This document shows, piece by piece, positions 3,191-63,839 of a stretch of DNA of 64,000 nucleotides. The notes below the pieces were generated by a model. That model saw only the letters and a list, made by a program, of their open reading frames with translations. It was not told the DNA's origin and did no database searches. The DNA comes from Neopestalotiopsis rosae. Lineage: Eukaryota > Ascomycota > Sordariomycetes > Amphisphaeriales > Sporocadaceae. The translations under genes and the position numbers were made by a program. The stretch lies in the NCBI GenBank assembly GCA_023078685.1, contig JALGAS010000011.1, forward strand, positions 372,001 to 436,000, read 5' to 3'. Every line of letters starts with the position of its first letter. Within the stretch, counting starts at the first letter, position 1.

Positions 3191-3919
3191 AGGGTCTTAA
3201 GTGGCCAGACCAAAACATTATGTACGATGCGACGTTGATGGCGTTCAGAATGCGAGGCGCTCGGTACCGTCGTGTGCCTTGCGCTTCCTCCTTTTTATTT
3301 GCTTTATTTGCTATTTTTCATCGGGTTGCACAGGAGTTGCGGGCGCTGGGACTAAACGTCCCCTGGGAAAATGAATGGGTTGCTTTTATTCAATGCGGTT
3401 GGCCAAGATCTTATTCAAAGAAGGACAATCGTTCTCGTGGTGTGGAGCCACAATGCATCGTCTCCTGGCAGCAAAATAGCTGGGGGATGAGATAGATGGA
3501 GTGGAAATTGTCTGGAGATGTATGGAGAGTGTCGAATGTCGTCACCACATCAGACTTGGGTCTAAATCAAGATCAAAAAATTGTACCGATATATTGGGAA
3601 AAACGGATCTGGTTCATTCGGGTTAGAGACACACAAAAGACCTGTACACATAGAACTTGGTCACGAACAAACGACCTGCGCGGCTAGAGCGCTAGAACAC
3701 TGGCGGAATTACAAAAAGCCAAGAGTGCACAGCAACACATGAGGAGCTCTCCCCTAAAATGAAAAACAAGAAGAAAATTCCACTTTCATAAATCATTAGT
3801 TTTGTTTCTTTTGCATTGTGACTTGATTAATGGAACGAATTTTGCCCTCGTGATACATGTTGATACATGGCTACTCTGTACAGTGACGGATCTAGCCCAA
3901 GCCCTTGGTTTTCTCTGCA
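3191..3919. other. Intergenic, convergent 3' ends
   Basis: AT-rich sequence between the convergent winged-helix and methyltransferase genes. Probably 3' UTRs; nothing else seen. Confidence 0.5.
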
Positions 3920-5413
3920 TTACTTGGACTTTGGCGTCAGTATCGACGAGCCCACATCCCACCATTTAGACCGACTTGCTGCTTCCTGAGACTCTCCTGC
4001 AGGCTTCTTCTCGCCAGCGGCAGTCGGAGGCTGTGTAACATCCTCGCGCACCCTCAGCTCAATCCAAAAGTGCGTGCCAAACTTGAACCAGCCGGGCCTC
4101 TCCATGTCGACCACCTCGAGCGCGGGCATTTTCCTCTGCGCGTCCTCGACAATGGCCTCGATATCGCGGTTCCACCAGCACCCGAAGCGCTCAAAGTGGC
4201 CCGAGGCGCTGCGGTCGAGCAGGCCGTTGACCAGGTCCCACCAGCTCCGGCCGTGCTCGAGCAGGATGATGCGGCCAGTGCTGGGGCGCACGACGTGGGC
4301 CATGTTCTCGAGGAGGCGCGTCGGGTCGCGCACGCTGCAGAGGCCAAAGGTCTGGATCACGGTGTCGTAATATTGTTGTCCGTCTTGGACCGCGGGTCCC
4401 ACCTTGCGCGATAGTCGGGGCAGCTCGTCCTGCGCGTCGCCCTTGAGGATCCTCAGCTTGCCGTCCAGCAGGGTCAGGCAAAGACGCTTGTCATCGTCGG
4501 GCTGCGCGAGCGCCGCGAATGAAGGCTTCTTGACCGGCAGGATCTCGGGACCGTGCGGGACCACGGTGCGGAGGCGCTCTAGACCGATATCGAGCATGTC
4601 CTCGCTGATATCTACGCCGGTGAAGCTGTCGACCTCGCGCACGTCGGCCATGTTGGAGCGGCCCCAGCCGCTCTTTTCGAGCAGGTCGCGGTTCCGCTCG
4701 CTGCGCGAGACAAGGGCGGCGGTGAGGGCGCCCCAGTCGTAGAACTCGAGGTTGCGGCCCGTGCCCATGGCGACCTCGAGGACGTGGCCCCGGGCCTCGG
4801 CGCCCAGCCGGCGGCGCAGCTTGGTGATGCCGTACCGGTGCTCCGACTTGTCGAGGTGCAGGTCGAACTCGAGCGGGCTCTGGATGCCCGGCCGCCCCGT
4901 CGGCACTGCCGGCTCGTGCCCCGTGCAGTACACGGGCGCCGGCTGCAGGTTGAGCCACACAAAGGACGCCGTGAAGGAGCCTAGGCACAGCGCCGCGGCT
5001 CCGGCTCCAAACAGGGCGATCCAGCGCGTCCGTACCAGCTCCGCTATGCTGAACTTGCGTGGTGGCGGTGGCGGTGTGGAGTGACCTCGTGCGCTCTCGC
5101 CGCCGCCGCCGCTGCTGCTACCGTCCTTGCCATGGTTCTCCGAAGTTGGTTCGGATGTATTCGGCGTCCTAGGTGACGATGGTTGAGCTACAGGTTCAAT
5201 CTTGGCGGAAGAAGATTTGAATGGCAGTGGTTTTGCCTTGCCGCGGACAGCAGATTTTGGGGCCGTTGATCGCCTGCCCGACCCGGACGACGCTGTCCGT
5301 ATCAATGGGGAGCTTATGCGCATAGGTGCCGTCCTCCATAGACATTGCGGACCTGCTCCTGGTCGGACTTGTGCCACCCTCGGCGCGCATTGCGCCACCA
5401 ATCGTGAGGCCAT
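3920..5413 (-). CDS. OMS1-like mitochondrial SAM-dependent methyltransferase
   Basis: Single exon, 497 residues. The first 40 residues are rich in Arg, Ser and Ala without acidic residues, as in a mitochondrial presequence. A Pro/Ser/Gly-rich linker follows. One membrane segment lies at about residues 131-154 (WIALFGAGAAALCLGSFTAS). The methyltransferase fold follows: motif I VLEVAMGTGRN at about 211-221, an acidic FTGVDIS strand, and a late RPSTGRIILLEHGRS motif typical of UbiE-type enzymes. This single-anchor plan matches yeast Oms1, an inner-membrane protein with a methyltransferase-like domain linked to cytochrome oxidase biogenesis. The substrate cannot be read from sequence. The coding region is GC-rich. 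COQ5-like function is an alternative, but COQ5 lacks this long linker and anchor. Confidence 0.82.
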   Translation of the reverse strand: MASRLVAQCAPRVAQVRPGAGPQCLWRTAPMRISSPLIRTASSGSGRRSTAPKSAVRGKAKPLPFKSSSAKIEPVAQPSSPRTPNTSEPTSENHGKDGSSSGGGGESARGHSTPPPPPRKFSIAELVRTRWIALFGAGAAALCLGSFTASFVWLNLQPAPVYCTGHEPAVPTGRPGIQSPLEFDLHLDKSEHRYGITKLRRRLGAEARGHVLEVAMGTGRNLEFYDWGALTAALVSRSERNRDLLEKSGWGRSNMADVREVDSFTGVDISEDMLDIGLERLRTVVPHGPEILPVKKPSFAALAQPDDDKRLCLTLLDGKLRILKGDAQDELPRLSRKVGPAVQDGQQYYDTVIQTFGLCSVRDPTRLLENMAHVVRPSTGRIILLEHGRSWWDLVNGLLDRSASGHFERFGCWWNRDIEAIVEDAQRKMPALEVVDMERPGWFKFGTHFWIELRVREDVTQPPTAAGEKKPAGESQEAASRSKWWDVGSSILTPKSK

Positions 5414-6630
5414 GATACCGAGAAAGGCAGCGGGCCGGCCCTCACACCACGTATCCCAATACGTACGTCACGAGGAAAGCAGATAGGGTGGCCGCCCAGT
5501 CACAGCCGCGTCTGCAAGGCTGTAATACCGACTAGGTACCCGACTTGGTCCCTGTCCGGTCGCTGGTGGTTGGAAGCTACCACAATGATCCCCAGCCTTG
5601 CCAGCCCCCCGTCAGCTCTCGTTTCTGCCTTTTCTGATCCGCCAATTGGCTCGGTAGTATGGGCAGATCTGACGCCAGACGACCAAAGGAAATCTTTCTT
5701 CTCAACCCCCTGACCACAACTGACGTAAGGTCGCCCCCGATCGAGTCAGACCTCGTCAAAGAAGCGGCGATCGACAAGAGCTTTGCATTAGCCGTCGGAT
5801 TTGGGGTTAAATTATGGATAGAATGTGACGCAATACCGGGGGTGGTGGAATCGAGAAAGATCGATTACTTCCCCCTCAATTGTTTTGCGGAGAGAGAGAA
5901 AGAAAGAAAGGGAGAAATGCTGTGACGTCTAGAGGCTCTTTGCCATGCCTCTTCTGTGCCTAGCCGTGTGTATACGTTGCTGGTTGTAGATCTTTTTAGA
6001 TCCTGCACACGTGGGGATGAACGCCTTTTTTCGGTTGCAGTCGCTTGTTAACGTGCAGTGGTTGCGCTGGCTGCCGCTGCTGCTTCGGATCCAGTGAACA
6101 AAAAAAGAGCGTTGGAACATTTTAGTGGGGCCCTGCATCGTTGGAAGGGAGTTCTTTTAGCGCCACTTCCTTGTATGCCCCGGATATTCACGAAAGGGCC
6201 CGCATATGCCATACTACTATGTAGGGAATCTGCAACCAGCGCAGCCGAACACTACTGTGTATGTACTTGAGGGCTGGACAGGACCCTTCAAGTGTCGTTA
6301 TGAGTAGCACAGAGTTGACGGACGGGATCATGTTGTGAGCTGAAGGGAGAAACATGGGGTTACTTTTTCTTGTCTTTTTTATTGGGCTTCTCTATCGATA
6401 CAATTGGCATGCAATTCTGCGTCATCTTGCATAAAACGATGGTTGGGCATCTCGACTAACATTGGATCCTAATGAGAAAATGTGGTTATATTTTCTAGTG
6501 CCTCTGAGAGATGTCTTCTATGCTACTAGTGTTTCTGGCTTCACGTCTGCGTATATTCACGGACAATGAAGCCATATCTGTAGTCTTCCTCTTCCCGATG
6601 ATTGACCTCCTTGCCACATGGAATAACAAT
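5414..6630. other. Intergenic region without recognised gene
   Basis: Promoter side of the OMS1-like gene, followed by about 1 kb with only short frames lacking domain character. No RNA gene recognised. Confidence 0.4.
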
Positions 6631-46700: not shown

Positions 46701-47575
46701 CGTCCCGGCAGCTATTTGGGCACTCCCCTGTCCCGGCGTGACTCTTAAGTGCACTGATTCCGCTCGAAAACGCTAGTAAACTCTGTACACTAGGAGTGTG
46801 GTGGGGGTGGACTGCAGGCTGTCGTCCACTTGTACGTAGCGGGCTGGCGCACGCAGTGGGCGCAAAAGCCTGCAGACGGCCGCTGGGTCATCGCCATGGT
46901 GCCCGCCCAGACACTAGCAGGGGCTGTCAACTTCCTAGAACATTGCCGTTACCAGGTACCTGTAGATTCATGGTGGGGTTCCGACAGCTTAGTCGCCCCT
47001 GTTTACTTTTTTTCTTCTCTTCTAATCCGTCTTCCATGTCGACACGACTGCAGGGGAGGGGAGACTGAGAAAAAAAAATATTGACACAATAATCTATTGA
47101 TTGGTAATACTCAAGAAGCTACCCTGCAACTTTTCGCGGTAACGCCCTTCGAGCCTGTGACAAAGTCCGTTTGCGGTCCACACCTCAATTCAGTACATAC
47201 ATGTGTTGACGCAGGGCATTGAGCTTATAGCTCTTTCCACCTCTTCTTTCCCTTCTTCTACTACACTTCTCTTGGACCGACCGTCAAGGGTTCTTTTTCA
47301 AACTCACCTTGTTTGAATCCAGGGACTTGGTCGGATCTTTCAGAAGCACTATTTTTGTATTCTTTAATTTACGTGCAGCGAACGGCAGTTTAAAGCCATT
47401 GAGGGCGACTTTGAAAGGCTCCCCGCCCTCCTCCCACTTGTTCGACTGTGCCGATCAAACGCCCATGCAGGCTCGATAATCCTGTGGCGTTAGTATATAA
47501 TCTCACCGCATATACACGGAAAGGAAAAAAGAAGAGGACGAAATAAACCTGTGCGACGACCAACCACCGAACACC
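43791..47575. other. Long intergenic region upstream of ABC transporter
   Basis: 3.8 kb. The only structured items seen are the 27 bp perfect hairpin at 44487-44513 and a coding-like fragment near 46805-46970. The last 400 bp is CT-rich and likely the transporter promoter and leader. No intact gene recognised. Confidence 0.45.
44487..44513. repeat. Perfect inverted repeat, 11-bp arms
   Basis: ACGGAGATAGT, spacer CCGGA, then ACTATCTCCGT: perfect 11 bp arms with a 5 nt loop. It could be a transposon-end relic or a dyad binding site. No second copy was found nearby. Confidence 0.6.
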
Positions 47576-50500
47576 ATGGCGGAGAAAGACGTAGAAAAGG
47601 AATACCTGGCGGGTGTCACAGAAAACACCAATGTCGCATCCGAGTCCACGCCCGCGACTGCCAGTGCGGCCCAGGATGCTCGCCCGGCGTCATCCTCCTC
47701 CTCATCGCGCTCTAGTGCTAGTTCCACGGATATAGAAGAGGGGATCCAACAGGCTCGACAGAACAACCCCAAGGGAACCTCCAATCCCCACACTGGAGTC
47801 TCCGTGTCGCAGGCCCAGGCCGACTTTGCTGAATTGCAACGAACAATCTCTGGAAGGTCGAGAACCAGTCGCAGACAAAGCCAAGGCAGCCATGCTCAAG
47901 CTGATGTCGAAAAGGGTACATCTGCAGTTGCAGATTCGCCTTCTTCCATTTCCACCGAGGAGGTATTTGATTTGGAAAATGCTCTGCGCGGAGGCCTAGC
48001 TGCTGAGCAGGAGGCTGGAATCAAGCCCAAGCACATTGGTGTGTACTGGGATGGCTTGACCGTGAAGGGCATGGGCGGCATGGAGAACTTTGTGCAGACC
48101 TTCCCTGATGCGTTTGTCAGCTTCTTCGACTACTATCATCCCCTAAAGCGCCTCCTCGGCCTTGGTCCCAAGATGAACGAGGTCACCATTCTGGACAACT
48201 TCCGCGGTGTCATCAACCCCGGCGAGATGATCTTGGTGCTGGGCCAGCCTGGCTCTGGCTGCACAAGTTTCCTGAAGACCATTGCAAACCAGCGATCCGG
48301 CTACACTGGCATCGAAGGCGATGTCTTGTATGGCCCCTTCACCGCCAAGGAATTCGACCATTACCGAGGTGAGGCCGTCTACAACCAGGAAGACGATATT
48401 CACCATGCCACTCTTACGGTCGAGCAGACCCTGGGCTTTGCACTGGATGTCAAGACACCCAAGAAATTGCCCGCTGGTACGACCAAGGCCAAGTTCAAGG
48501 AGGACGTCATCTCCATGCTCTTGAAGATGTTCAACATTGAGCACACGAGACACACCGTGGTGGGCAACGCCTTGGTCCGAGGTGTGTCTGGAGGAGAGAG
48601 AAAGCGTGTCTCTATTGCAGAAATGATGATCACCAATGCTTGTATTCTTTCGTGGGACAACAGTACCAGAGGTCTTGACGCAAGTACAGCGCTTGACTTC
48701 ATCAAGTCTCTCCGTGTACAGACCAACCTGTACCAGACTGCTACCTTTGTCTCTCTCTACCAGGCATCAGAGAACATCTACCGACAGTTTGACAAGGTCC
48801 TGGTCATTGACTCGGGTAAGCAGGTCTACTTTGGACCCACAGCTGAGGCGAGAGGTTATTTCGAGAGCCTGGGATTTGCGCGCAAGCCTCGTCAAACCAC
48901 GCCCGACTATCTGACCGGCTGCACCGACGAGTTCGAACGAGAATACGCAGATGGATACTCGCCCGAGAATGCACCACACAGTCCCGAGACCCTGCAAGAG
49001 GCTTTCCAGAAATCTTCCTTCACTGAGAGGCTCAACACTGAGATGTCTCAGTACAAGACTCGCCTCGACGAAGAAACCGCCAAGCACGAAGACTTCAGGG
49101 CCGCCGTCCGCGAAAGCAAGCGAAGTGGCGCTAAGCGCTCCGTGTACAACGTCGGTTTCCACCAGCAGGTATGGGCATTGATGAAGCGCCAGGCTGCTCT
49201 CAAGTTGCAGGATCGCCTTGCACTCATCCTTGCCTGGTTCCGCAGTGTCCTCATTGCAATCGTTCTCGGCACGCTCTACCTCAACCTCCAACAAACCTCA
49301 GCCAGTGCTTTCAGCAAAGGTGGTCTTCTGTTCGTCTCGCTCCTCTTCAACGCGTTTGAAGCTTTCTCCGAATTGGCCGGTGTCATGACAGGTCGCTCGA
49401 TTGTGAACAAACACAAAGCCTACACCTTTCATACACCGTCAGCCCTATGGATTGCTCAAATCTTTGTTGATACGGCGTTTTCGGCAGCGCGAGTCTTGGT
49501 CTTTAGTATAATTGTCTACTTCATGACCAACCTGACTCGAACTGCTGGTGCATTCTTCACCTTCTACTTGCTCATCATGGTCGGAAACATTGCAATGACA
49601 CTCTTCTTCCGTATCATTGGTTGTCTCAGTCCTGACTTTGACTACGCCATCAAGTCCGCTGTTGTCGTTATCACATTGTTCATCATCACTTCTGGCTACT
49701 TGATTGCGTACCAGTCTCAGCAAGTATGGTTGAGATGGATTTACTATATCAACGCACTTGGTCTGGCTTTTGCTAGTCTCATGGCCAATGAGTTCAAGTC
49801 CAACGAGCTCGAGTGTACGGCTGACTCTTTGATCCCTTCCGGCCCTGGCTATGGTGATATTAACCATCAAGTTTGTACTCTTGCTGGATCTGTCGCCGGT
49901 ACTACAGAGGTTAGCGGTGCTGCTTACATCACGCAAGGCTTTTCGTACCGCCCATCCGATCTCTGGAGAAACTTTGGTATCATTATGGCTCTCATCGTCT
50001 TCTTCCTCATCATGAACGTGGTGCTGGGCGAGTACATTACTTTTGGTGAAGGTGGCAATACATTCAAGGTCTTCTCCAAGCCAAATGAAGAGAGAAAGAA
50101 GCTCAATGAGACTCTCACCAACAAGAGGCTGCAGCGCCAGAAATCGAGAAAAACTGAAGACGAATCCGCGCTGTCCATTGAATCGAAGAGCGTCTTGACT
50201 TGGGAGAACCTCAACTACGATGTGCCTGTTCCCGGTGGCACTCGCCGACTTTTGGACAATGTCTTTGGTTATGTGAAGCCTGGCGAACTGACCGCCTTGA
50301 TGGGTTCGTCGGGAGCTGGCAAGACCACGCTTTTGGATGTTTTGGCAGGACGCAAGAACATTGGTGTCATCCATGGTGATATCCTGGTCGACGGTGCCAA
50401 GCCTGGCAAGGAGTTCCAGCGATCCACCTCGTACGCCGAACAGCTTGATATGCACGACCCTACCCAGACTGTACGTGAAGCGCTTCGCTTCTCTGCCGAC

Positions 50501-52131
50501 CTGAGACAGCCCATGGAGACACCTCAAGAGGAAAAGTACGCCTACGTCGAGGAGATTATTGGGCTTCTTGAGATGGAGCATATCGCCGATGCGATTATTG
50601 GATTCCCCGAAGCCGGTCTCACCGTCGAACAGCGAAAGCGAGTGACCATTGGTGTCGAACTGGCTGCCAAGCCTCAGCTCCTCCTGTTCTTGGATGAACC
50701 TACATCTGGTCTTGACTCGCAGAGTGCTTTCAACATTGTCCGTTTCCTGAAGAAGCTTGCTGCTGCAGGTCAAGCCATTCTTTGCACCATTCATCAACCC
50801 AACGCCGCCCTCTTTGAGAACTTTGATCGACTCTTGCTTCTGCAACGTGGTGGCCAGACTGTCTACTTTGGAGACATTGGTAAGGACGCTGTTGTCCTTA
50901 GAGACTATCTGAAGCGCCACGGTGCCGTCGCAGGCGAGACCGACAATGTTGCCGAATTCATGCTCGATGCCGTTGGTGCTGGAAGTGCCCCGCGCATTGG
51001 CGACAAGGACTGGGCGGATATCTGGCGTGACAGCCCTGAGCTGGCAAATGTCAAGGATACCATCTCCCAGCTCAAGGAGTCTCGTGCCGGTCAAGTTGAT
51101 GTCGACCCAGCCCTGCAGCGAGAATTCGCCTCCAGCCTCTCGCACCAGCTCAAGATTGTCATCCACAGAACCAACTTGTCCTTCTGGCGTACCCCCAACT
51201 ACGGATTCACTCGTGTCTTCAACCACTTTGTCATTGCCCTGATCACTGGTCTTGCTTTCCTCAAGCTTGACGATTCTCGATCGTCTTTGCAATACAAGGT
51301 TTTCGTCATGTTCCAGGTTACTGTCTTGCCTGCACTGGTCATCACGCAAGTCGAGGTTCTATTCCATATGAAGCGTGCCATCTTCTTCCGTGAACAGTCA
51401 TCCAAGATGTACAGCACCTTTACCTTTGCGGTCTCCATGATCCTTGGCGAGATGCCCTACTCCATCTTGTGCGCAGTTCTGTTCTTCATCCCCCTGTATT
51501 ACCTCCCAGGATTCCAGACGGACAGCACCCGTGCCGGTTACCAATTCTTCATGATTCTTATCACTGAGCTTTTCTCGGTCACCCTCGGCCAGCTTCTCGC
51601 AACCATGACGCCCTCGGCTTTCATTTCGAGTCAGTTTGATCCGTTCGTCATCATCACTTTTGCTCTCTTCTGTGGCGTCACCATTCCCGCACCGCAAATG
51701 CCCACTGGATGGCGTGTCTGGCTGTACCAGCTGGACCCCTTCACGCGTCTTATTGGTGGTATGGTCACGACGGCTCTCTACGAGCTTCCTGTGACCTGCG
51801 CAGATAGCGAATACAACGCTTTCACCGCACCCGATGGTCAGACGTGCGGCGAATACATGGATGCATTCTTCTCCGCTGGTGGTGTCGGTTACATCCGAGA
51901 CAACGCCACCAGCGCTTGCGAGTACTGCGCCTACAAGATTGGCAACCAGTTCTACGAGCCTCTCGGCTTCTACTACTACAACCGCTGGAGAGATCTGGGA
52001 ATTTTCCTGGCATTTGTAGGATCGAACATTATTCTGATCTTGCTTGGAGTAAGTTATATCACCACATACTACACGCACACACAAACTAATCATCACTGCA
52101 GAGCCGTTTCCTCAACTTCAACCGTAGATGA
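47576..52131 (+). CDS. PDR-type (ABCG) multidrug ABC transporter
   Basis: ATP-driven plasma-membrane exporter of the pleiotropic drug resistance family, relatives of Pdr5/Cdr1. Exon 1 is 47576-52048 and exon 2 is 52102-52131, a 30-nt last exon giving the end GSRFLNFNRR; total 1500 residues. The order is (NBD-TMD) twice, as in PDR proteins. NBD1 has the degenerate Walker A GQPGSGCTS (Cys instead of Lys, about residue 222), signature VSGGERKRVS and the altered Walker B ILSWDNSTRGLDA. NBD2 has a normal Walker A GSSGAGKTT (about 909), the altered signature LTVEQRKRVT and Walker B LLFLDEPTSGLDS. This asymmetry is normal for the family. Two six-helix domains follow the NBDs. The N-terminal 130 residues are Ser-rich and probably phosphorylated. 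The start context is CACCATGG. Substrates unknown; azoles and plant toxins are typical. Confidence 0.95.
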
Positions 52132-52808
52132 TCTCGGAATGCAGATCTACTCATTTCAGTTACCATTTTTTGCACAGCAATTTCTCAAATTGCGGAGGCA
52201 TAACCCTTTTAGACTTGAACATTTTGCTTTTCGACGGTTGACCAGCGTTCAAGAGAGATAGATACCTCATAGAAAGGACAGGCGCTTTGTAGATACCAAA
52301 AGTCCCACAGATATAATAAATTAATGACCCGATGCCACATAACCACAAGTATGACAGTTGAACTGATGTCTGAGACTCCCACCATACAGACGGCGAGAGC
52401 TCATGCAAAACTCTGATAGAGACTAATACCCGTCGATTGAATAATAATACTGAACGCTGCCTTCGACATCAATGGGGAACAAAGCCAGGCCGGGCTATGA
52501 AGCAGCACGGCCCCGGTTGTCACACCTTGCCAGTGTCCAACAAGCCCATTTGCCGATTAGCAACTCATGGGGAGTTCTTGCTGACATCGAAGACAATTGT
52601 CCCCTCTCAAGCGCACAGTGGATTTGTAGGTAGGGGGAAATTATGTCAGACTTCAGATGAGATTGAGAACTTGATTGCATCAAACGAGTTCGCCATATCA
52701 CTTTGATGGGCACTAAGTGACTTCAATTGTGCAATACCCTGCAACTACAAATGTGGCCGAAATCGAATGCTTTCTGTCTCACTTGTTTCTATTTATCAGT
52801 GCCCTTGC
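52132..52808. other. Convergent intergenic region
   Basis: Separates the transporter 3' end from the kinase-HET gene 3' end. No gene seen. Confidence 0.5.
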
Positions 52809-55800
52809 TCATACTAAAGTGACCCACGAAATCTCATCGTCCATTTGATCTGGCAGTAAAGAAGCCACGCCAACTCTCTCGTAAGCACTCGAATCATCAT
52901 AAGGATAGATGATCAGTACGTGTACTCGTGGTTGTACTCCGTCCTTTCCAACTTTGTCGCGTCCAACAACTACACAGCGTAAATGCGCTCCCCCAAAGTC
53001 ATCCGCCGCATCAAACGAAACCTGTTGAAGCCATTCCGCCTCGGAGAACCTCAGTCTGCGAGCAGGCGCTTCAAAGTCGGCCCAGGCTGAGGCCGAAGGC
53101 TGACTTTCGATTGAGATATGTGGGGTTGCCTCTGTAAGTCTAGAGTGTAAGAACGGACCCTTGAAGTCGCCGGTCGCCCACTCAATGCCGTCAAATTCGA
53201 GGTCCATATATTTGATGGGGCCGTTCTTGGAAAGCCACGACCAGCTTGGCACGCGGTCTGGCCCATACGATTCGATAGGCACCATTCTCCGGTCGCTATC
53301 GGATTGCCAGAGTAGCCCTCGACCAAGATAAATGGCGAAAAGTCCGTAAGCTGCAACAGTGTCGAATGCGCGTGCCAGTCGTCGTTCAAGACCTCTAATG
53401 GCCATGCTCCTGTCTGAGATGATTGAGAAATCCAGGTAAGAGTACCTCTCGTACATGTCTTGAACCAGCATTTGTCTTCCACCCCGATGACACTTTAGAG
53501 CCAATCTTGGGAAATTGGAATCGCCCATGAAGGTAGCACGCGCACTATTGTTTTGTTAGTGTGGCCAAACAATGTCAATACGACGCTCACTTGTACTTAC
53601 TTCTTGAGCCGTGTCAATGTCTCACAGTGAATACCCTCGCCGCATTCCCAGTAAATCTGGTTTGAGCTGAAGTGAATTGAGCGACGTGATAGAATCCTTT
53701 CCTGAAAAGCCCAGCCACGACTAGAGAGGGGACTGAGCTCAACGTCGCTGTGAAAGTTGTCGATGGCGCGACATACATACAACGATCTGCCATTACCTAC
53801 TGTTACTTCTACACAGGGACGTTGCGGACGTGACACAAGAAACCCGTCGTCGTCGGATCTTGCGGAAGTGGCGGCGATTGTGAAGTATGCACCGCTAAAA
53901 GCCTGCTCCATTTGAAGTAATTCGTGGTTCCGGTCTTCACTGTCATGAAGAATGCAGAGTCTGTCGATCCAGATGTATCTCAGCCCAATACTTCGAACCA
54001 GAGTGATAGCATCTCTTAATGTCTTTGGAAGCTGTTCCAACTCGATTGATGTTCTCACTTCCTCGAGATTTGATGTCGTCGCCCATATCGACGGATGTCG
54101 GCCCCAGCAGTGGCTCACGGCTGCGTATCGCTCATACTTTATGAACGACGATGTATCGACAAGTCTGATGTTGTCGTTGACGACATCAAGCAGGCGCGTA
54201 GGTAAGGTGCTTAGATCCACATCGTGTTCATTCCGACGGCACACATCATGATTTGAATCACACATCCGAATGAGTTGCCCTAAAAGCTCGAACTGGGCGA
54301 TGCTCCCTACAACAGGCAATTGAGGGAGTCCCAGTTTTGTTCCACGAAGAACATCCGAGCCTGCAATGTCAACGCCCTTATTACGAAGAAGTAGATATAT
54401 TTTTCGGCTTACCTGGTTCCGAGTAGACCGACAGCAAATCGGGGCCATCAATCATGGTAATAGTTGCATCCTCCTGCGATAAGACGATAATTGAAGGCAA
54501 CTCTATGCCAGTTGACCTCAATGCTTCCAGTAGTAGCTGACACAGATCACACGAGTGTGACTTGTTTTCAAGCTCTGAAACACTATACTCACCAGCAAAT
54601 ATCGAATCAGGGTCAATTTTTGTGCAACCTGTGCATAATCGAGAATGCCTGGTCTGCTGCGATGGTTTCACGCTATTCCAGTCGACAGTCTTGAAATAAG
54701 TGACGGCAAAAGCGCTGTCTGGTGACGAGTGCCATGCATCTGTTGGCCGATTTGATTGCTAGATAAAACGAACGTTATAAGTAAAACTTCATAAATTTGA
54801 TTGAAAAAATGGCTCACTGTCTAGTTGATAGCTGTTAGTCGCAACGGCGCTTGCAATGGCTGGCTTGGTGTAACTCACTTGATGTGCTGAAGCTACAATA
54901 TTTGAGCTCAATTTGGCGACCAAGCTCCATTCGCCAGTAGATCTCCTAATACTGACTATCCGATCGGGCAGGTTCACTTCTGGGGATGGCTCTTGCCGGG
55001 CACTCGTACCTCTTGTAACATCTCGTCTGCCAGGTACTTCTAACAGTTTGGATCTGGTGGGTATGTGCTGTTGTCGTGCTCGAATAGTATCGGAAGGATA
55101 CTCCAGGTCAAGTGGTATAAGATAGGTTCCGGATAATTGGCAGTTTCTCTGAACTTCTGCCATCTCTTTGCAGAGAACAGCTGCAATTTCGCGGTGGTCT
55201 GCGGAGCTCACGTAGTTTTCTGAAACAGCGACTACCAGCAGCCGCCTCTCCACTAAGCTCAAGATATCCATGTAGGCAGTGTTGTCGTTGTTGTTGTCCT
55301 GCAGCTGCTTCTTCATGACTCGGATACAGGATATCACGTAGGAATGAACTCTATATGGCGTGTTTCCTTCCCAGTCGCCAGGCTCCCAGAAGTGAGTCGT
55401 AGAGGACTTGAAAGTGTCCAGAGCATGATTTCCATAAACCAGCCACAGCAGCAGCTCCAAAGTAACACAGCCCATCGACCACATGTCGTATTGGCGTGAG
55501 CGCGCGTCAGGTTTTGAGTGCGTGGAGTCCATCTCTGGTGGCTCATAGCGAGATGTCCCGGATGACGTCAAGGTCGCCATCCCTTGCCTGTATTTTGTGT
55601 TCTGTTCTTTTGCATGAAATGCTGCGAGACCAAGGTCTGCAATCTGCAGAGTTCCGTGGCCGTTTCCGTCTCGAAACCAGAGAATATTCTCAGGCTTCAA
55701 ATCGCCGTGACGACAATTGCTTTCGTGGAGCTCATTGAGAGCTGAAAATATCCCTCCGACTTGTCGAAGAATCCAATGGAGGCTCGTTGTGTCATAGCGT

Positions 55801-58800
55801 TGACTCTCATGACCGGTCCAAAAATCTCTTAGATTACCCCCGTCTGCCCATGGAAAGACAAGACATCGATCCTCTGCTATATGGTACGCCGCAACTGGTT
55901 TGATGAGATGGGGTGATTCATATTCACATAACGCGCGAAGATTCCTTGCCTCTCTATCAAAGAACTCAGCAAGATCTTCACCATGTTTGGCTTTCTTGAT
56001 TGCGACAGACACCATGCCGGTTTTTGAGTCCTGTATCTTTCAGTATTCCTCCTAAATATCACGTAGGTGGTGTTCAAGAACTTACTGGAGTTACTTGTGG
56101 TACATGTGCTTTGTGAATTTCAACTCGAGAAACTTCACCAAAGAATCCACGTGCAGGTTTGTGCACCTTTGGAAGCTCCAGGTACGGCAAGATGGTTTTC
56201 GGATGAAGCTGGTAATGGAATGGATCGCCCGCAAATACCGGCGCAAGAAATGAACACTGCCAATGGTCGAAAAGACGTCGATCATTCCGCTCCCATCGAT
56301 TGAAAAAGCGGAACTGCCTTTCATCGCCAGCACTGGTGGCGGTCCCATAGTAAGTACCATTGTCATCTATATGGAACTCGATTGGCAGGAACTTGTCAAC
56401 GACATCGTTGGAATAAAAGTCGTTGAGCCAGGAACTGAGTTTCTCCGTTTCCTTGGTGATCAGAGCCAAGATCAAGAAGAGCCTCCGTGCATCCTGAAGA
56501 ACGAATTCGATGAGTGTACGCTTGTTGAGAATTTCACCATCATCGTTATGATTGATGATCTTAGTCACATTTTCTCGAGTCACAAATGTCTCCAATCGGT
56601 CGCATGGTAGGAACTGGCCGGTTCTCAAGCAGTTGTCCATCAACGCGTCATCCACATCATCCGCTAGTCTCCGCAAGATATCAGCGGCGGAGATTTGTTC
56701 GGCTCGCTTTATCACATCTAGAATGAGGTGAGCTTGGAAACGTTTCTTTCCCCATTCCCATTAATCTTGTTGACATACCTTGTATTACGAGGCGTTTCTG
56801 GGATAGCTCGGTAGCTTCTTCGGTTAAATCTAGTGCCCAGAGAACTCCCTCAAGATTCTCCATAATGATACCTGTTTTCGTATGTTTTGGACCGAGCAAT
56901 GTTTCAGTCAGTGTCAGACACTGGAGATACAGCTCTCTTGCCTCTTCGAATCGTCCTTCTCTGAAGAGAGAATCCGACAAAGCTTGAAGACAATCTCGGG
57001 TAAGCATATCTTCTGGGCCATTGAGCCTCGTTGATATGTCAAGGTGTTGCCGGAGCACGTCTCCCTCAAAGTCATTCGCCCGCTGGCGAATATTCTCCTC
57101 AAAAACCAGCTTCCAATTAATATGCTCGAATTCATCTTCTTCTGGAGTGCTATAGTCCGAGTCATACGCATCCGGATATGGCGGCACCAGAGGAAACCAT
57201 TCCCCGTCCCGCCAGGTGCCCACCGGGACGCCACCATCGTTCTGCAACTCGCTTCTCTGGGAACTGAGGCTGTCTCTATCCTCGAGATACTGGATATACA
57301 TCAAGCTGAGTTGTTTCAGATCTTCCGCAATGTGTCTCAGTAATTCGTTCCTCAGATCTTCCGAACGGCGGTCGTCTATGACCGCAGTAGGTACCCCTTG
57401 CTTGTCGGGCAGAAGTATACGAGCAAGAATACCAGGAATTGTGTTACAAATCGGACATGTGTATTCTGGTCGTAGATGTCTGACTTCGCACAGGGCCATA
57501 AAGGTCTCGAGGCTTGGACCATCGCTGTTATCCGGGTGATGGTCCTCAATATGCTTCTCGACCGCAGACTCATCCTCGAACCATTGTGACTCATGAGAAT
57601 CTTGGCAATGCCACCTAGTTGGCAAATGTATCGTACTCGGCCAGTCAGAAGAGTGTTCTTTATCTATATGTGCCTTCCAATCGTCGAATCGAGCGAACAA
57701 TTGAGGTGGTCTGGCACAATCTTCCGACAGACATGCGTAAAGACGTAAGTCCTGCTTCACATGATTTCTAGAATTGTTATTCATTTTAGCAAATGCACGA
57801 GATTGATGAAAACTCACTTCCACCGGCTCTTTTATTTCATATTCAGCCTTTTCATAACGCCTGCAGCAATATGGGCAAATTGCGTCTCTTGCACCTTCTT
57901 CGATTTTCGGAGGTTTCGGGTAGTGCAATTCCCCGGGCGAATGACTCGATGTGTGAGATTTTGTTGGATAGAAATGGGTCTTGTTGAACCTTTGTATCAC
58001 AGACTGAGATTCTGGTCTGCTAGGGTTTGTGTCAGACTGAGGAGTAGCCAGCGCCTTTTTGAAGCTTTGAGTCGCGTGCGGCGTGAACTCCTTCTGTGCA
58101 GCTGACGCTCTTCCGCCGTCAAGAGGTTCTTTTAGAATTGGCTTAAATACTCGAGACTTAGTGCCCATGTTGGGAGTCGGACTCTCTTCTCGATTTGTGA
58201 GATCTTGCTTCTTCGCTACGTGGCTCCTAGTGTAGATGATGCCGAAGTGTCGAAATGTTAGGGAGCTAGCCAGCTGTGCACACAAGGATAGCGCCGCTCC
58301 ATGATGGCCGTTCAAGGTTTGACGATAGACCAAGCGAAGCTGAAGATTTCTGTAGATCTCCTCCTCTAGGGTACCGTCAGTTTTCTGGTCTATGAAGGCG
58401 CTAATGCGTTGGATCAGGGTACTGGCGGAGGACTGTTGGATGGCAATGCCGAGCCGCAAAAGCGAGTCAATTGCAGCTTCCAATATCTTGAGCGACTCGA
58501 CAAGTAGAGAGGAGAGATGATTTTCAGGTTCTTCCCCCATCTGGCTAACTATGGAACTTAGTGGATCATCTCTTTCATGTTTGTCTGCTTGAGTCTCCAA
58601 GCCCACAACTGTGCAAGGATTGATGTCAGTATAGTCAGATATTGGAGAACCATAGTTTGAGTGCGTGAAGCTGACTTCGTTCCAAATTGGTCTTCACTAT
58701 CTGCAGAAAGTGTAGAACCAGATCACGCAGTGAATCACTGTACATCAGGCTTGCGTCCAGTGACAGACTTGGCTTTGCGTATACATTCGAGTTATGCACC

Positions 58801-59003
58801 CATTGGTCGAACTGCTGACCCAGGATGGTGACCACGGCAAGACTTTGTGCATCTTGAATTTCGATGATGCGACGGAAAAAAAGGTCGCATTCGTGTGTCT
58901 GCCTGCGGATGTCCATGTCATTTGAGGGCTCAAACAAGACGACGATGAAGGCAAATTGACTCGAAATGATAGAGTGATGCGGTTCAGACGCATCGGAACA
59001 CAT
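52809..59003 (-). CDS. C2H2/TPR - protein kinase - HET fusion protein
   Basis: Seven exons on the minus strand: 58676-59003, 56779-58608, 56086-56717, 54879-56030, 54413-54758, 53601-54360 and 52809-53544. They total 5784 nt, about 1927 residues, with every phase consistent. Residues about 354-520 form a fungal C2H2-like zinc region (ICPYCCRRY, HVKQDLRLYACLSEDC, WKAHIDKEH, CPICNTIPG). About 655-720 is TPR-like. The kinase follows: glycine loop ARGFFGEVSRV (about 908), VAIKK, catalytic HGDLKPEN (1038), metal-binding DLG (1062) and a PPE motif (1094), so it looks active. A CTGC/CDLC cysteine pair (1356-1387) leads into the HET domain: YAAVSHCWG (1508), YIWIDRLCILHD and RGWAFQERILSRRSIHF. HET domains trigger incompatibility cell death. 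The exon 3-4 junction splits the kinase domain, so it is secure; the kinase-HET join (120 bp intron 54759-54878) is the least certain. Confidence 0.8.
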
Positions 59004-59579
59004 GCACACTTAAATTTGCTTCCAGTGAATTGTCAAAGCACATCGTGCGTTAGGGTAGTTCAAGAAGCTACTATGTATGGATTGTCATTGACCGTAGGGT
59101 AACACTTTCGACGAAAGTGACATGCACACGCGCGTGCTGATGGAATGATACGTGGCGACCCCGCAATGGATCTCGAGCTGTGAATGTTCAGGTGGTGTGG
59201 CGCACCCCAATCGGAACAATAGTTTCATATCTATGCCTGAGCTGATATCAATGCATGAATTATTAGTGTGTGCCCGACATACCTAGGCGAGATTGAAACA
59301 TAGAGCCCCGTCATCTGGGTGCAAAAAGGCACAAGGCTGTCTGTCTGCCCCGTCTACTGCTACACATTTCCCAGCTGAAGGATGGTAACTTTTTCAAAAT
59401 TGCACTTCAGCTGAATGAACAGACACTGCCGAGTAATCTGTGCAGACACATTCTGTTGTAGAAGCTCATGATCTCTTCACTGTGCAGCGCTGGATCATCG
59501 GGTCACGTACACATCGTTGAAAAGAGCCGGTGGAGACTCTGGGTGTGTCTGACCTGGACCACTGTCTGGAGCAGTCACC
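59004..59579. promoter_or_regulatory. Shared divergent promoter of kinase-HET and protease genes
   Basis: 576 bp separate the kinase-HET ATG (59003, minus) from the protease ATG (59580, plus). No gene lies between, so the two probably share control elements and may be co-expressed. Confidence 0.6.
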
Positions 59580-62500
59580 ATGCCCGCCATCAAAGATTCC
59601 GCGCAGTGGCAACTCCTGGTTCGAATTTTGCCTTTCTTCAATTCGGATCTTGCCTGGACGGCGGCAAATCGTCAAAGCAAAGATGAGATAGTCGTCGCGG
59701 ACTATGCCAAGCTTATCAAGGGTGAACTTGCGACCATCAAGGTGTTTGCACGTGTAGAGCAAGTGCTTGATGAGTCCATATACGACGAATTCGTCACGAG
59801 CACTGAATCACTACTTTCGACACTGGAGGTACTTCTTAATGACAGAATACTGCATCCACAGGTGAGCCAGGACAGCCCCCATACACCAAAATTTCCTAAG
59901 CAGCACATTGTATATTTTGATTGATTGTGTTACTAGGTGGCGATTGATGACTATGCAATCGACCTCCGTCGCCGGTGCCCGAAGCTCATAGCGCTTGATA
60001 GGCTAGCAATACCTACATCGGATTTTGAACAGTTTGTCTACCTAGAACAAGATGCCCCGTCCTTCAAGAGAGTCTATTTCAGCATAAGAACTTTCATTGA
60101 AGCCATGCCAGCCCCGTCCAATGCGACTACGACAGGAAAACGTCAGGCCTCATTTGATCTCAGTAAGCCCCAGCTAAAGAGTCGGATCGATCAATCTTTC
60201 AGAGCTCAAGCATCAGCGCTGCTACAGTCTCTGATAAAACAAGTCGAGCGGTGCGAAATGGAAAATCCGAATCACCGGGCCATGCTGCAGCTAGATCACA
60301 GGAAATGTGATATTGCACCTATGCCGGTCGTGGGCCAATCGGAGTTTCGCCTCTTGCTGTCAGAGTGTCAGGACAACTCGAATCACAACATCTGGCGACA
60401 AACAGATTGCACTGTATCATTAACAACCAATGAACTGTATTTGAAACCTAATTTGGATTTTGAATTTACCAATATTCCCGCTGATACCGATTACAGAGAC
60501 GAAATACCCGAGGATGCAGACCAGTGTCAAATTGACAATCTGTGCCAGAACGCCGCCATAGCTCACGAAAACGATCAGCTGTTTAGGATTTCACTACTCA
60601 ATGGCGAGCTATATGACGTATCAGAAGCCGAGATTCCGGACCCCGGTGGTACTGGGACGATATCGTTACACGATCTTTTTGACCGTGGCATATTGAGAAA
60701 TCGCTACTGTTTCCCTCCGAACGACAAGAAAATGCTAGCGTGTACACTTGCACAAGCACTCTTGAACTTCTACGATAGCTCATGGATAGAGCAAGTCTGG
60801 ACACTGAAAAGCATTTCATTCTTGCATTCCACTGATCACAAAGTCTGCGACGTTCATCGACCATACATGGCTTGTTCGATCGCTGCGGATATCGCATCTC
60901 TAAAGACTTTGGATGAATCTCACAAATACCCTCTGATATTTTCTTTCGGCAACCTGTTGTTGGAGTTGGAGACTGGGGAGGAGACACAGCGAAAACGTAA
61001 TAAGAAAGGGAGGCTCAGCCTCTGGGAGGCCCTGAGCCAATTTTGCAAGACATCGAGCAAGCACCAACTGAGCCATGGCTACGGAAAAGCGCTGGAGGCT
61101 TGCGTCAACTTTGAGAAGTATCATGCACTAGAGCTAAGGGACAACCCTGACACGACTGAAGCCGAAGTCATACTCAAGTATATCGTGCATCAGCTTGAGG
61201 ATGATATACATATATCTGACCAAAAGAAATCCGAGTCTCGCAATTTAGACCTCAAAATGAAAGACTCTGGTACACTGGTTCCACAGAGCCTCTCATCCGC
61301 AATGCCGGCGAATACCTCGTTCTCGAACGCAGCAAAGTTCCGCGGAAACACTGTTCAAATTCCCGCGCATGAAAATTTAGGGGGCACGGCGGTGATGTTT
61401 GATTCACTCGCTGGCGAAGAGTACGTATAACCCTTGATCTCATTGCTGGGGAACGTGGTTGTTGCCAATACTTCATTTCACAATCTGATTGTAGTCACTG
61501 ACCCAAGTGATGAGCTTTTGGTCGCAAACGTCTGGATTGAAATCACCATCTGGATGCTAATTTCTCAAAGGCATGCTGGTGTAGAAAAAGAGTTTTGGAA
61601 CAACCATAAAGTATTTTATGAAGAATACATAAAACCGAAAGCGCAAATGCGCGGAAGACATAGCCGCAGGATTCGAATTGCAGTGCTCGATACCGGCATT
61701 GACAGATATGACTCGTCCGTCAGAGGGCAAATTGACGCCATCACCGATGAACGATGGAAACGTGCTCTGGAGGATATCAAGCGGAATCGGGCGGGGGATA
61801 AACCAAAAAAAGATGCATGCAGTCCGATCAAAGAGATTAAGAATTTCGTGGAAGCCAGCAGTTCTACCACAGATAGCTGTGGCCATGGAACAACCATGGT
61901 TGGTTTGCTACTTCGTGTGGCGCCCGATGTGGATGTCTATGTCGCAAAGGTGGCCGAGAGTCTGCAGTCTGCAGATACAGCCGCTGTTGCAAAGGTGAGC
62001 ATGCATTGATCACCTGAGTAATGTGATGCTGATAAAAGCCAACATCACAGGCAATCGAATGGGCAGTCGAAAATGAAGTTGACATCCTAAGCATGTCGTT
62101 CGGTACGAGGGGTTTAGATAGCGTTATTGAACGCGCTCTTAACAACATACCGTATCCCGTCATCATGTTCGCAGCAGCATCAAATGGTGGAACGGGCATA
62201 CCAACTGCATACCCCGCCTTTGACTACAGAGTCATTTCTGTCCACGCATTATCCGGTAATGGCGCTGAGGGCAGCATGAATCCAACTACAGAAGCCAATT
62301 CTGATGCTTTTGGAACCCTCGGGTACGGTGTGAAAACCACATGGAAAGATAGAACTCGTTTCGTAAATGGTACTTCGTACGCGACACCAATTGCTGCCGG
62401 CATCGTGGCGAATTACCTCGAATGGGTCAACCATGTAGCCAAGGATGCAAGTCTTGGGGTGAAAGAGCGGGAGGCGGAGCAGTGGAAGTCTAAAAACACC

Positions 62501-62656
62501 ATTCACGCAGTCCTCAGGCATCTAATGTCGCACAGAAAGCACAAACTAGACTTCATCATGCCGTGGTTACTCTGGCAGCCGAAAATGAAAGACCCTGACA
62601 AGCACGTGATTAGCACGCTTAGGAATCATTGGAGGGTCTCTCCATCTCTAGAGTAG
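59580..62656 (+). CDS. HeLo/DUF7580-like plus subtilisin (S8) protease
   Basis: Proposed exons: 59580-59861, 59937-61424, 61515-61994 and 62051-62656, about 951 residues. The N-terminal 150 residues are helical and resemble fungal HeLo-like or prion-inhibition domains. Residues about 150-560 look like DUF7580 (YPLIFSFGNLLLELETGEE, then LSHGYGKALEACVNFEKYH). The S8 protease has all key residues: Asp649 in IAVLDTG, His714 in CGHGTTMVG, Asn795 in AAASNGG and Ser859 in NGTSYATPIAAG. It should be an active intracellular serine protease, since no signal peptide is present. The intron after exon 2 is awkward: the stronger acceptor at 61494 would shift the frame, whereas the GAG acceptor at 61514 keeps it. 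The other two introns are clean. It is divergent from the kinase-HET gene and tail-to-tail with the gasdermin-like gene, as expected for a HET-Q2-like activator. Confidence 0.78.
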
Positions 62657-62762
62657 ACATAAAAGCTTCTGAGCGCAAATTCCTCCCCTTTAATGTACAT
62701 CTTAAGTATTACTAAAAAGGGAAAAGAAATTGCAAGTTCGGATTAGATAAACAATAACCCAA

Positions 62763-63839
62763 TCAGAAATTTCCAGGAATTATCCACTTCTCATCGCCGT
62801 CCTGAACAGACGCGTATTCTTCGCCTTCATCCAGTAAATCGTCAACAGCGTAATCATTTTCCAACCCAATAGCCTCCACATTGGGCTCGTTGATGTTCAT
62901 TCCACCATCCATCATACTCGCACCCTTCCTGGAAAGCTTGTGTTCCCAGCGTCCCATCTTGTACAGGATCTTTCGGACTCGAAAAGCCAGAACAAAGGGT
63001 GTCGAGTTACCAAAGGCCTCCCCCCTGTTTCGTGCCTTTTTGAATTCAAGAATTTTCTGCACATCGGCTCCGGGAAGCTGTAACCCAAGTGCACCTCCGC
63101 CCTCAATCGAAGCTGTCTTCTTGAGGCTGGCGCCATAGGCGACCTTAAGGCCCGTGACCATGTACAGCGCTGGTGGAGACTCCTTGTCGTAGCCGGCGAG
63201 ATAGCTCTGAATAGAGGCTAGCTTCATACTATCATCGACGAAAGCTTGTAGGGCCTCAAACTCAAAAGTGATCAAGGTGTTGACCGACAGGGCGTCTTGG
63301 GAGTGGCGCTCGAAGATCAAACCCGTTTCGATGCCGACCGGCAGACCTAGTGCAGCGAACATAGTGGCCCAGATGCCGAGGCGACCGCTCAACAGCTCCC
63401 CGCGAGTGGCGCGAAACCCTTGCTTGATGTCGGGAGTGAAAATGTCGGCCGAAGAAATATTCATGCGGTCCTTGCGGTTGATAGCTATAAGCTCATCGCC
63501 GAGCGGGTCCCTCAGAATGTCGCCTAGGAAGAGGGCTGGAGATAGAGTTGTACTCTGTGCTGAAGCTTCCATATTCTCCACGACGCCTATTGGAGTAGAG
63601 GGTACCGCTGTATCGGTCTCAGTCGGCTCCTCGGAGGTTAGAGGTGCTTCATCATCCCGTGCAGACTGGTTTCCAATAGTGACATCCTCAATCTGCTCTG
63701 CATCATTGTCTGCGGGGTTAGCGACCACCTCTTGGCTGTTATTTGCGGACGCTTCAGGCAACGCAGCGATCAAGTGCTTCCAAAAATAGGGCGGCGCGCG
63801 CGTAGTATAGCCAGGAGTGACAATATAGGTCTTGCCCAT
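62763..63839 (-). CDS. Gasdermin-like pore-forming protein (HET-Q1/RCD-1 type), putative
   Basis: Single exon, 358 residues, no signal peptide. Fungal gasdermins form membrane pores and kill the cell after proteolytic removal of a short C-terminal segment. Residues about 1-30 and 102-295 form the likely pore-forming domain: FLGDILRDPLGDE, a GRLGIWATMFAALGLPVG block, FEFEALQAF and LYMVTGLKVAYGASL. These match my memory of the fungal gasdermin pattern, but no alignment was possible. Residues about 31-101 are an acidic, Ser/Thr/Glu-rich insertion near the N-terminus. The last 60 residues (about 298-358) are a separate tail, acidic after residue 325, as in the inhibitory tails of this family. The gene ends 106 bp from the S8 protease gene on the opposite strand, the arrangement known for fungal gasdermin-protease pairs. 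Identity rests on pattern and context together. Confidence 0.6.
   Translation of the reverse strand: MGKTYIVTPGYTTRAPPYFWKHLIAALPEASANNSQEVVANPADNDAEQIEDVTIGNQSARDDEAPLTSEEPTETDTAVPSTPIGVVENMEASAQSTTLSPALFLGDILRDPLGDELIAINRKDRMNISSADIFTPDIKQGFRATRGELLSGRLGIWATMFAALGLPVGIETGLIFERHSQDALSVNTLITFEFEALQAFVDDSMKLASIQSYLAGYDKESPPALYMVTGLKVAYGASLKKTASIEGGGALGLQLPGADVQKILEFKKARNRGEAFGNSTPFVLAFRVRKILYKMGRWEHKLSRKGASMMDGGMNINEPNVEAIGLENDYAVDDLLDEGEEYASVQDGDEKWIIPGNF

Follow-up and report, generated by a model that had tools for sequence, protein, structure and literature searches.

Fungal gasdermins are frequently encoded beside proteases. In the excerpted text of PMC10197012, around 80% of them are clustered with proteases and 63% with proteases of the S8 family, and the portions of PMC12881547 and PMC10197012 consulted describe gasdermin-cluster proteases that are fused to repeats, NOD-like receptors (NLRs) or 'kinase-like domains', as well as two- or three-gene clusters in general terms. 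In the HET-Q1/HET-Q2 pair of Podospora anserina and in Q2L/gasdermin clusters, where the two genes adjoin each other, as far as the excerpted descriptions go, a gasdermin with a short C-terminal inhibitory tail is accompanied by an S8 protease that removes this tail, and HET-Q1 sheds around 5 kDa from its C-terminus (PMC12881547, in excerpt). The same excerpt names the control of gasdermin-activating proteases in fungi as a matter for future research. Here we describe a locus of Neopestalotiopsis rosae in which an S8 protease gene and a gasdermin gene are likewise neighbours, and in which the protease carries a DUF7580 domain and stands next to a third gene. The locus occupies the last 11 kb of the window, by which we mean the whole stretch of 64,000 nucleotides that was analyzed (GCA_023078685.1, contig JALGAS010000011.1, positions 372,001-436,000 of the forward strand; this contig is C3 in the locus labels below). 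Gene models were built by hand from open frames and GT-AG introns and, together with Pfam, they bear out the original prediction, made from the letters of the window, of three adjacent genes at 52809..63839:

52809..58916, minus strand: third gene (partner or trigger) with N-module, TPR repeats, kinase and HET domain; 7 exons, 1898 residues (GT-AG gene model, Pfam)
58917..59579, no strand: intergenic stretch of 663 bp between the divergent starts of the third gene and the protease gene (gene models)
59580..62656, plus strand: DUF7580-S8 protease gene; 4 exons, 952 residues (gene model, Pfam)
62763..63839, minus strand: gasdermin gene; single exon, 358 residues, 62766-63839 without the stop (profile match to RCD-1 in the PDB, Foldseek)

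The third gene and the protease gene are head-to-head across the 663 bp, and the protease and gasdermin genes converge tail-to-tail with 106 bp between them. We consider it moderately probable that the three genes form a regulated-cell-death unit, in which the N-module partner would control an MLKL-like pseudokinase, DUF7580, fused to a protease that would free the gasdermin. A protease beside a gasdermin is established; the third, N-module-bearing gene and its pairing with DUF7580 are the new part. Compared with HET-Q2 and Q2L, the window protease differs in carrying DUF7580 and in having a homologous third partner gene at three loci, a partner that the excerpted accounts of those clusters do not describe. 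We found no description of the N-module partner or of its pairing with DUF7580, and no mention of the term 'DUF7580', in the literature searched (Clave et al. 2022 and its supplement lay outside this search).

Gasdermin loci and their third gene

The 358-residue protein gave nothing over the cut-off in a Pfam scan and, as a single sequence against the PDB, matched RCD-1-2 at E 0.018. A profile of the window gasdermin and 12 of the 14 relatives found (profile A3, 13 rows; P0005, a 200-residue piece, and P0011 were left out) matched only RCD-1 chains at E <= 1, with RCD-1-2 the best at E 2.3e-7, and the addition of two paralogues of the same genome (profile A1) gave RCD-1 at 3.3e-18. The AlphaFold2 model made from A1 is weak (mean predicted local distance difference test score, pLDDT, of 56; 119 of 358 residues at 70 or above and 181 under 50). 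A Foldseek search of the PDB with this model nevertheless gave only gasdermins at E <= 0.001 (15 matches), again with RCD-1-2 in first place (1.1e-7). By profile family and modelled fold, the protein is a fungal gasdermin, as had been proposed; the searches that could have pointed to another kind of protein returned RCD-1 and other gasdermins. It shares fold and family with the RCD-1 gasdermins of Neurospora crassa (PDB 8jyx, 8jyy, 8jyz), to which a paralogue on contig C10 is closely related (E 1e-40), and would differ from them in its mode of activation, as RCD-1 acts by the meeting of two allelic variants and not by proteolysis (PMC12881547, in excerpt). The closest relatives of the window gasdermin are from Hyaloscypha and Nemania (54-56% identity), and a scan of IMG/VR returned no gasdermin relative among 17 pattern matches. 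Two features mark the end of the protein:

62910..62924, minus strand: GASMM, residues 306-310; candidate cleavage site or hinge (alignment columns)
62766..62909, minus strand: C-terminal tail, residues 311-358; candidate inhibitory tail (alignment, model)

The separate C-terminal tail that had been predicted is present after residue 310. Within GASMM, A307-M310 (ASMM) is invariant in 13 of 13 aligned rows. The tail is variable except for a terminal W(I/V/M)(V/I/L) motif (W352 in 12 of 13 rows), and the model, at low confidence there, predicts short strands at residues 342-347 and 350-355. GASMM may be a cut site or hinge and the 48-residue tail an inhibitor; at around 5 kDa, the tail is of the size of the piece that HET-Q1 loses.

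The genome searched comprises 53.8 Mb in 17 contigs, by which loci are labelled. A search with the window gasdermin retrieved two more, at C12:1.290 Mb and C10:2.409 Mb, and a fourth, weak gasdermin at C6:0.323 Mb was found with a relative (E 1e-3; profile E 4e-9). Near each of the C12 and C10 gasdermins is a DUF7580-S8 protease gene, with DUF7580 matches at E 2e-32 and 1.2e-23, respectively. The S8 part was recognized by Pfam at C12 (1.7e-10) and by phmmer with the window S8 only at C10 (4.5e-6 and 0.0025); a genome-wide Pfam search listed 19 S8 places, and the C10 S8 is not among the matches listed. S8 similarity was found at three of 17 DUF7580 stretches, and these are the three with a gasdermin. 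All three DUF7580-S8/gasdermin loci found also have a third gene that bears the N-module, a region of around 530 residues that is helical by appearance and is followed by a zinc-finger-like spacing of CPxC...H...H. The N-module of the window gene matched that of the C12 gene with 53.5 bits over 403 residues and that of the C10 gene with 41.2 bits over 172 residues (pairwise BLAST), and 20 columns are invariant in an alignment of five sequences, one of these truncated. Gene order and orientation are the same at the window and at C12, that is, gasdermin, protease converging on the gasdermin, and partner diverging; C10 has the same three genes in a rearranged order. The third gene of the window is built as follows:

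57257..58916, minus strand: N-module, residues 1-531; helical region and CPYC/H...H zinc-finger-like region (pairwise BLAST and alignment)
56795..56983, minus strand: TPR repeats (Pfam TPR_12 E 3.8e-15)
55446..56009, minus strand: protein kinase domain, with K913, D1011 (HGD) and D1033 (DLG) present (Pfam Pkinase E 3.4e-24, residues)
53699..54127, minus strand: HET domain (Pfam HET E 2e-27)

The original prediction had described this gene as a kinase-HET fusion. Both domains are there, but the gene is larger, with the N-module and TPR repeats having been missed. The two halves appear to belong to one fused gene: upstream of the stretch similar to other kinase-HET genes, the kinase frame lacks an in-frame ATG, and N-module/TPR is connected to kinase-HET by a 61-bp intron (GTATGT...CTAG). 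No NACHT or NB-ARC domain was detected in the five frames of the gene covered by the Pfam scan at E <= 1 (exons 5 and 7 lay outside it). The third genes at C12 and C10, of which Pfam covered one and three frames, respectively, showed no match to the window kinase or HET parts in any frame of at least 30 residues, and kinase-HET was rejected as the conserved third element on this ground. As judged from these comparisons, the conserved part of the third gene is the N-module, and kinase-HET is a variable payload. A third component of the unit, as originally proposed, is thus retained at three of three loci with a different constant part, and the co-occurrence of three genes holds within the genome for the N-module gene, not for a kinase-HET gene. 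The kinase-protease-pore cascade first suggested is plausible for the window and was aimed at the wrong constant part.

A different explanation is that of an allorecognition locus for heterokaryon incompatibility, in which the HET part would kill by itself in a TIR-like manner, the gasdermin would be a parallel killer, and linkage would reflect selection for a polymorphic cluster. With no HET match in the third genes of the other two loci, we hold this to be quite improbable.

A kinase-HET pair was also found at C14:3.277 Mb, where the 10-kb stretch shows no match to a gasdermin, and three further pairs can be proposed from neighbouring coordinates only. A separate kinase-HET gene at C12:1308031-1310343 (L028) lies around 18 kb from the C12 gasdermin and around 11 kb from the C12 third gene. 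The fourth gasdermin (L024, C6:318001-328000, 373-5523) is located beside a NACHT_N-NACHT-ankyrin gene on the opposite strand and is possibly controlled without a fused S8 protease. A narrow search, which covered proteins close in length that have words in common with the first 500 residues, retrieved no homologues of the third gene in the species with the closest gasdermin relatives.

The N-module/DUF7580 pair across the genome

The Pfam search placed DUF7580 at 17 places, which is a lower bound, and around 10 kb or more about each was searched with an N-module profile. An N-module gene was found near 12 of the 17; three of these (the window, C12 and C10:2.40 Mb) had been used to build the profile, which leaves 9 of 14 independent of it. 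Control DNA of the same genome (122 kb) contained no N-module match below E 0.01, the two marginal ones being at 0.011 and 0.78. Blind whole-genome searches with two N-modules retrieved, besides the query loci, ten places at E <= 0.01, seven of them within 6 kb of a DUF7580 place; this corresponds to 7 of 15 non-query DUF7580 places compared with 0.2% expected for each (P ~2e-15, with the places taken as independent). The similarity matrices of the two partners are correlated over all 12 pairs (Mantel; Pearson 0.75, p 1e-4; double-centred 0.77, p 1e-4), also by ranks (Spearman 0.50, p 2e-4; raw-score Spearman 0.43, p 9e-4), and r is 0.84 over 11 of the 12 pairs, without L015. The neighbourhood of N-module and DUF7580 is far beyond chance, and the pair travels together.

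These counts bear on the simplest alternative, a two-gene gasdermin/protease cluster in which the DUF7580-S8 protease would itself be the sensor that cuts the gasdermin, and the third gene would be an immune-type neighbour without relation to them, in a region rich in HET genes and receptors. Gasdermin/protease pairs are the described rule, at the ~80% of fungal gasdermins quoted above (PMC10197012; PMC12881547; both in excerpt), and frames that resemble a HET-type WD40 receptor by eye lie on the other side of the gasdermin. HET genes are also very frequent in this genome (150 scored matches of 350 candidates), so that one would fall within 6.7 kb by chance in 4-9% of cases and HET proximity alone means little. 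This alternative accounts poorly for the homologous N-module gene at three of three DUF7580-S8 loci and for the N-module/DUF7580 neighbourhood at 12 of 17 places with co-divergence of the partners, and we regard it as unlikely.

Nature of DUF7580 and a proposed switch

The protein encoded by the protease gene has two recognized domains:

60186..61211, plus strand: DUF7580 domain, read as a probable MLKL-like pseudokinase C-lobe (Pfam E 8.3e-47; profile against PDB, weak; hhalign)
61668..62431, plus strand: S8 protease domain, with Asp at 61689-61691, His at 61884-61886, Asn at 62183-62185 and Ser at 62375-62377 (Pfam PF00082)

Peptidase_S8 was matched in two exons (E 1.1e-4 and 9.2e-12), and the active-site residues D650, H715, N796 and S860 are intact, in agreement with the complete catalytic set that had been predicted. 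Of the accompanying assignment of HeLo/DUF7580, DUF7580 was confirmed and HeLo was not. A HeLo or four-helix bundle (4HB) start on the window protease was not supported: there is no strongly hydrophobic helix (best 17-residue mean 1.0) and no Pfam HeLo match in the three of four exons scanned (exon 1 lay outside the scan).

A profile built from 15 of the genome's DUF7580 sequences was searched against all PDB chains. The four best matches are to the MLKL pseudokinase, at E 0.009 to 0.058, weak when taken alone; at E <= 10, 38 of the 40 matches are protein kinases (4 MLKL, 26 IRAK4 constructs and 8 others), together with two nsp3 chains. By contrast, a profile of the N-module had no kinase among its 3 hits. 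The alignment is collinear with the C-lobe of MLKL up to the motif of what we take to be the F-helix, and DUF7580 keeps no catalytic loop. In hhalign, DUF7580 reached a probability of 72 against a six-sequence kinase profile (the window kinase and five others), the HGD of the kinases facing EQV, compared with 0.1 against HET and S8 controls, both of which were single sequences. Together, these comparisons indicate that DUF7580 is probably a kinase-like pseudo-lobe, nearest MLKL.

Of the nine other N-module-paired DUF7580 genes, six have a strongly hydrophobic helix at their start (as in MSGFEVLGVVLG), two lack one, and in one the start was not found. These hydrophobic-start genes may be executioners in their own right. 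At L019, one of the unpaired DUF7580 places, Pfam detected HeLo (E 4e-26) in the frame that precedes the DUF7580 frame.

The arrangement recalls the MLKL/RIPK3 switch, in which RIPK3 phosphorylates MLKL (PMC12881547, in excerpt). Shared with it are the collinearity of the DUF7580 profile with the MLKL C-lobe, the hydrophobic-helix starts in six of nine other pairs, and a kinase with its key residues encoded next door; the locus differs in the fusion of the pseudokinase-like lobe with a protease, in having a gasdermin as its pore former, and in that no 4HB or HeLo was found on the window protease. In the mechanism that we propose, the product of the third gene would be the sensing and signalling partner and would act through its N-module on the DUF7580 part of the protease-gene product. 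DUF7580, as an MLKL-like pseudokinase lobe, would keep the fused S8 protease inactive; once relieved, the protease would cut the gasdermin near the end of the pore domain and take off the 48-residue tail, and the tail-less gasdermin would perforate the membrane. We infer the direction of signalling, the physical contact, part of the pseudokinase nature of DUF7580, the cleavage, the cut site and the killing. In evolutionary terms, the executioner role would have been handed to protease and gasdermin at the three gasdermin loci, with the N-module partner kept. The kinase of the window partner could phosphorylate DUF7580, as RIPK3 does MLKL; as a general mechanism, kinase action is unlikely, given that the search of the other two partners yielded no kinase.

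Several observations weigh against this reading. All of the evidence is sequence, from one genome, and a database search for relatives of the protease found none. At C10, the protease has a diverged S8 part, for which Pfam gave no match in the single S8 frame covered, and the 10-kb stretch of the fourth gasdermin has no N-module, DUF7580 or S8 match. The partner payload differs between loci, which means that kinase activity is no general requirement. Five of the 17 DUF7580 places (L013, L014, L017, L019 and L021) have no N-module match better than E 0.3 (L017, E 0.37), and three N-module places lie more than 10 kb from any DUF7580 place. The correlation between the partners could come from the joint duplication of neighbouring genes without a functional link; this would give the same correlation, which therefore shows co-travel and not interaction. 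As for the pseudokinase, the best MLKL match is weak (E 0.009), the hhalign probability reaches only 72 with the six-sequence kinase profile, and folding of DUF7580 from a single sequence, without an alignment, gave a pLDDT of 34.

On the preferred reading, that of a three-part unit under the control of the N-module partner, the partner gene head-to-head with a DUF7580 gene is a concrete candidate for the control of a gasdermin-activating protease. The combination of putative trigger and protease in a gene pair that is repeated in the genome suggests that a necroptosis-like switch has been coupled to a pyroptosis-like pore. Should DUF7580 be an MLKL-like pseudokinase, a single small cluster would unite necroptotic and pyroptotic logic, and the 9 further DUF7580/N-module pairs in the genome would become candidate death systems. 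A bolder extension, drawn by analogy and doubtful when its parts are taken jointly, is that the partner kinase phosphorylates an MLKL-like DUF7580, which releases the fused S8 protease and frees the gasdermin, and that DUF7580/N-module is a widespread fungal executioner/partner pair with payloads exchangeable on both sides; the two lytic death programmes of animals would then share a modular root that fungi still recombine.

The locus can also be compared with het-S/nwd2 and related pairs, with which it shares the neighbourhood of receptor and executioner genes (PMC12881547, in excerpt) and from which it differs in that the partner here has no NACHT or NB-ARC in the frames scanned. Among the NLRs of Sordariales, zinc fingers and kinases occur as extra domains, 57 NLRs having zinc fingers; in 52 of these 57 the zinc finger is C-terminal, whereas the module here is N-terminal and paired with DUF7580 (PMC12258605, in excerpt).

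Payloads of the N-module and neighbouring genes

Behind the N-module, the payload differs by locus. At the window it is TPR-kinase-HET. The N-module gene at C3:146 kb has C2H2 fingers (Pfam E 3e-13), and that at C11:5.70 Mb a weak C2H2 match (E 0.002). In the scanned frames, nothing was recognized in the third gene at C12, and nothing beyond weak zinc-finger matches in that at C10:2.41 Mb. Database relatives of the third gene carry PF00931, which we take to be NB-ARC (Annulohypoxylon), a kinase (Fusarium xylarioides) or NPHP3_N, a NACHT-type domain (Neopestalotiopsis). One kinase-HET protein of Pleosporales has no N-module by eye.

These payloads and the orientation of the pairs are relevant to a further possibility, that the zinc-finger-like region of the third gene binds DNA and governs the shared 663-bp promoter. 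By frame positions, ten of the 12 N-module/DUF7580 pairs are head-to-head, the exceptions being C10:2.40 Mb (tail-to-tail) and C10:5.60 Mb (tandem), and such control would suit a zinc-finger-like module that is accompanied by C2H2 fingers in the C3:146 kb gene and, by a weak match, in the C11:5.70 Mb gene. The window kinase, and the kinase or NB-ARC domains in the relatives from other fungi, point instead to signalling proteins and make transcriptional control very improbable.

Two payload candidates were set aside. An NB-ARC in the C10 third gene had been suspected by eye, and comparison with one NB-ARC gave only 1.7%. For the N-module gene at C10:5.60 Mb, a kinase was suggested by phmmer (E 8e-4 to the window kinase) and by HGDIKAES, seen by eye; as Pfam gave no match for that frame at E 0.1, the kinase is only a lead. 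In this stretch (L012, C10:5596001-5606000), the N-module gene is followed by the possible kinase frame, and there are also a DUF7580 frame and another long frame on the same strand. Both the N-module and the DUF7580 of L012 have their nearest counterparts at the C10 gasdermin locus, and the stretch has no S8 or gasdermin match.

A database protein of 2348 residues (P0017) starts with an N-module and has a C-terminal helicase part. At positions 4302-9281 of L021 (C10:5920001-5930000), a DUF7580 gene without an N-module adjoins frames that resemble this helicase part by eye; the annotation of P0017 may have mis-joined genes that are neighbours.

Directly to the left of the locus, an intact long frame on the plus strand (47501-52261 of the window) reads by eye as a PDR-type ABC transporter. 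To the right, around 3-8 kb past the end of the window on C3 (L008, 3922-8549), long plus-strand frames resemble by eye a HET-type N-terminus, a NACHT-like ATPase and WD40 repeats; on this reading, a second immune-type receptor may lie nearby, on the far side of the gasdermin gene.

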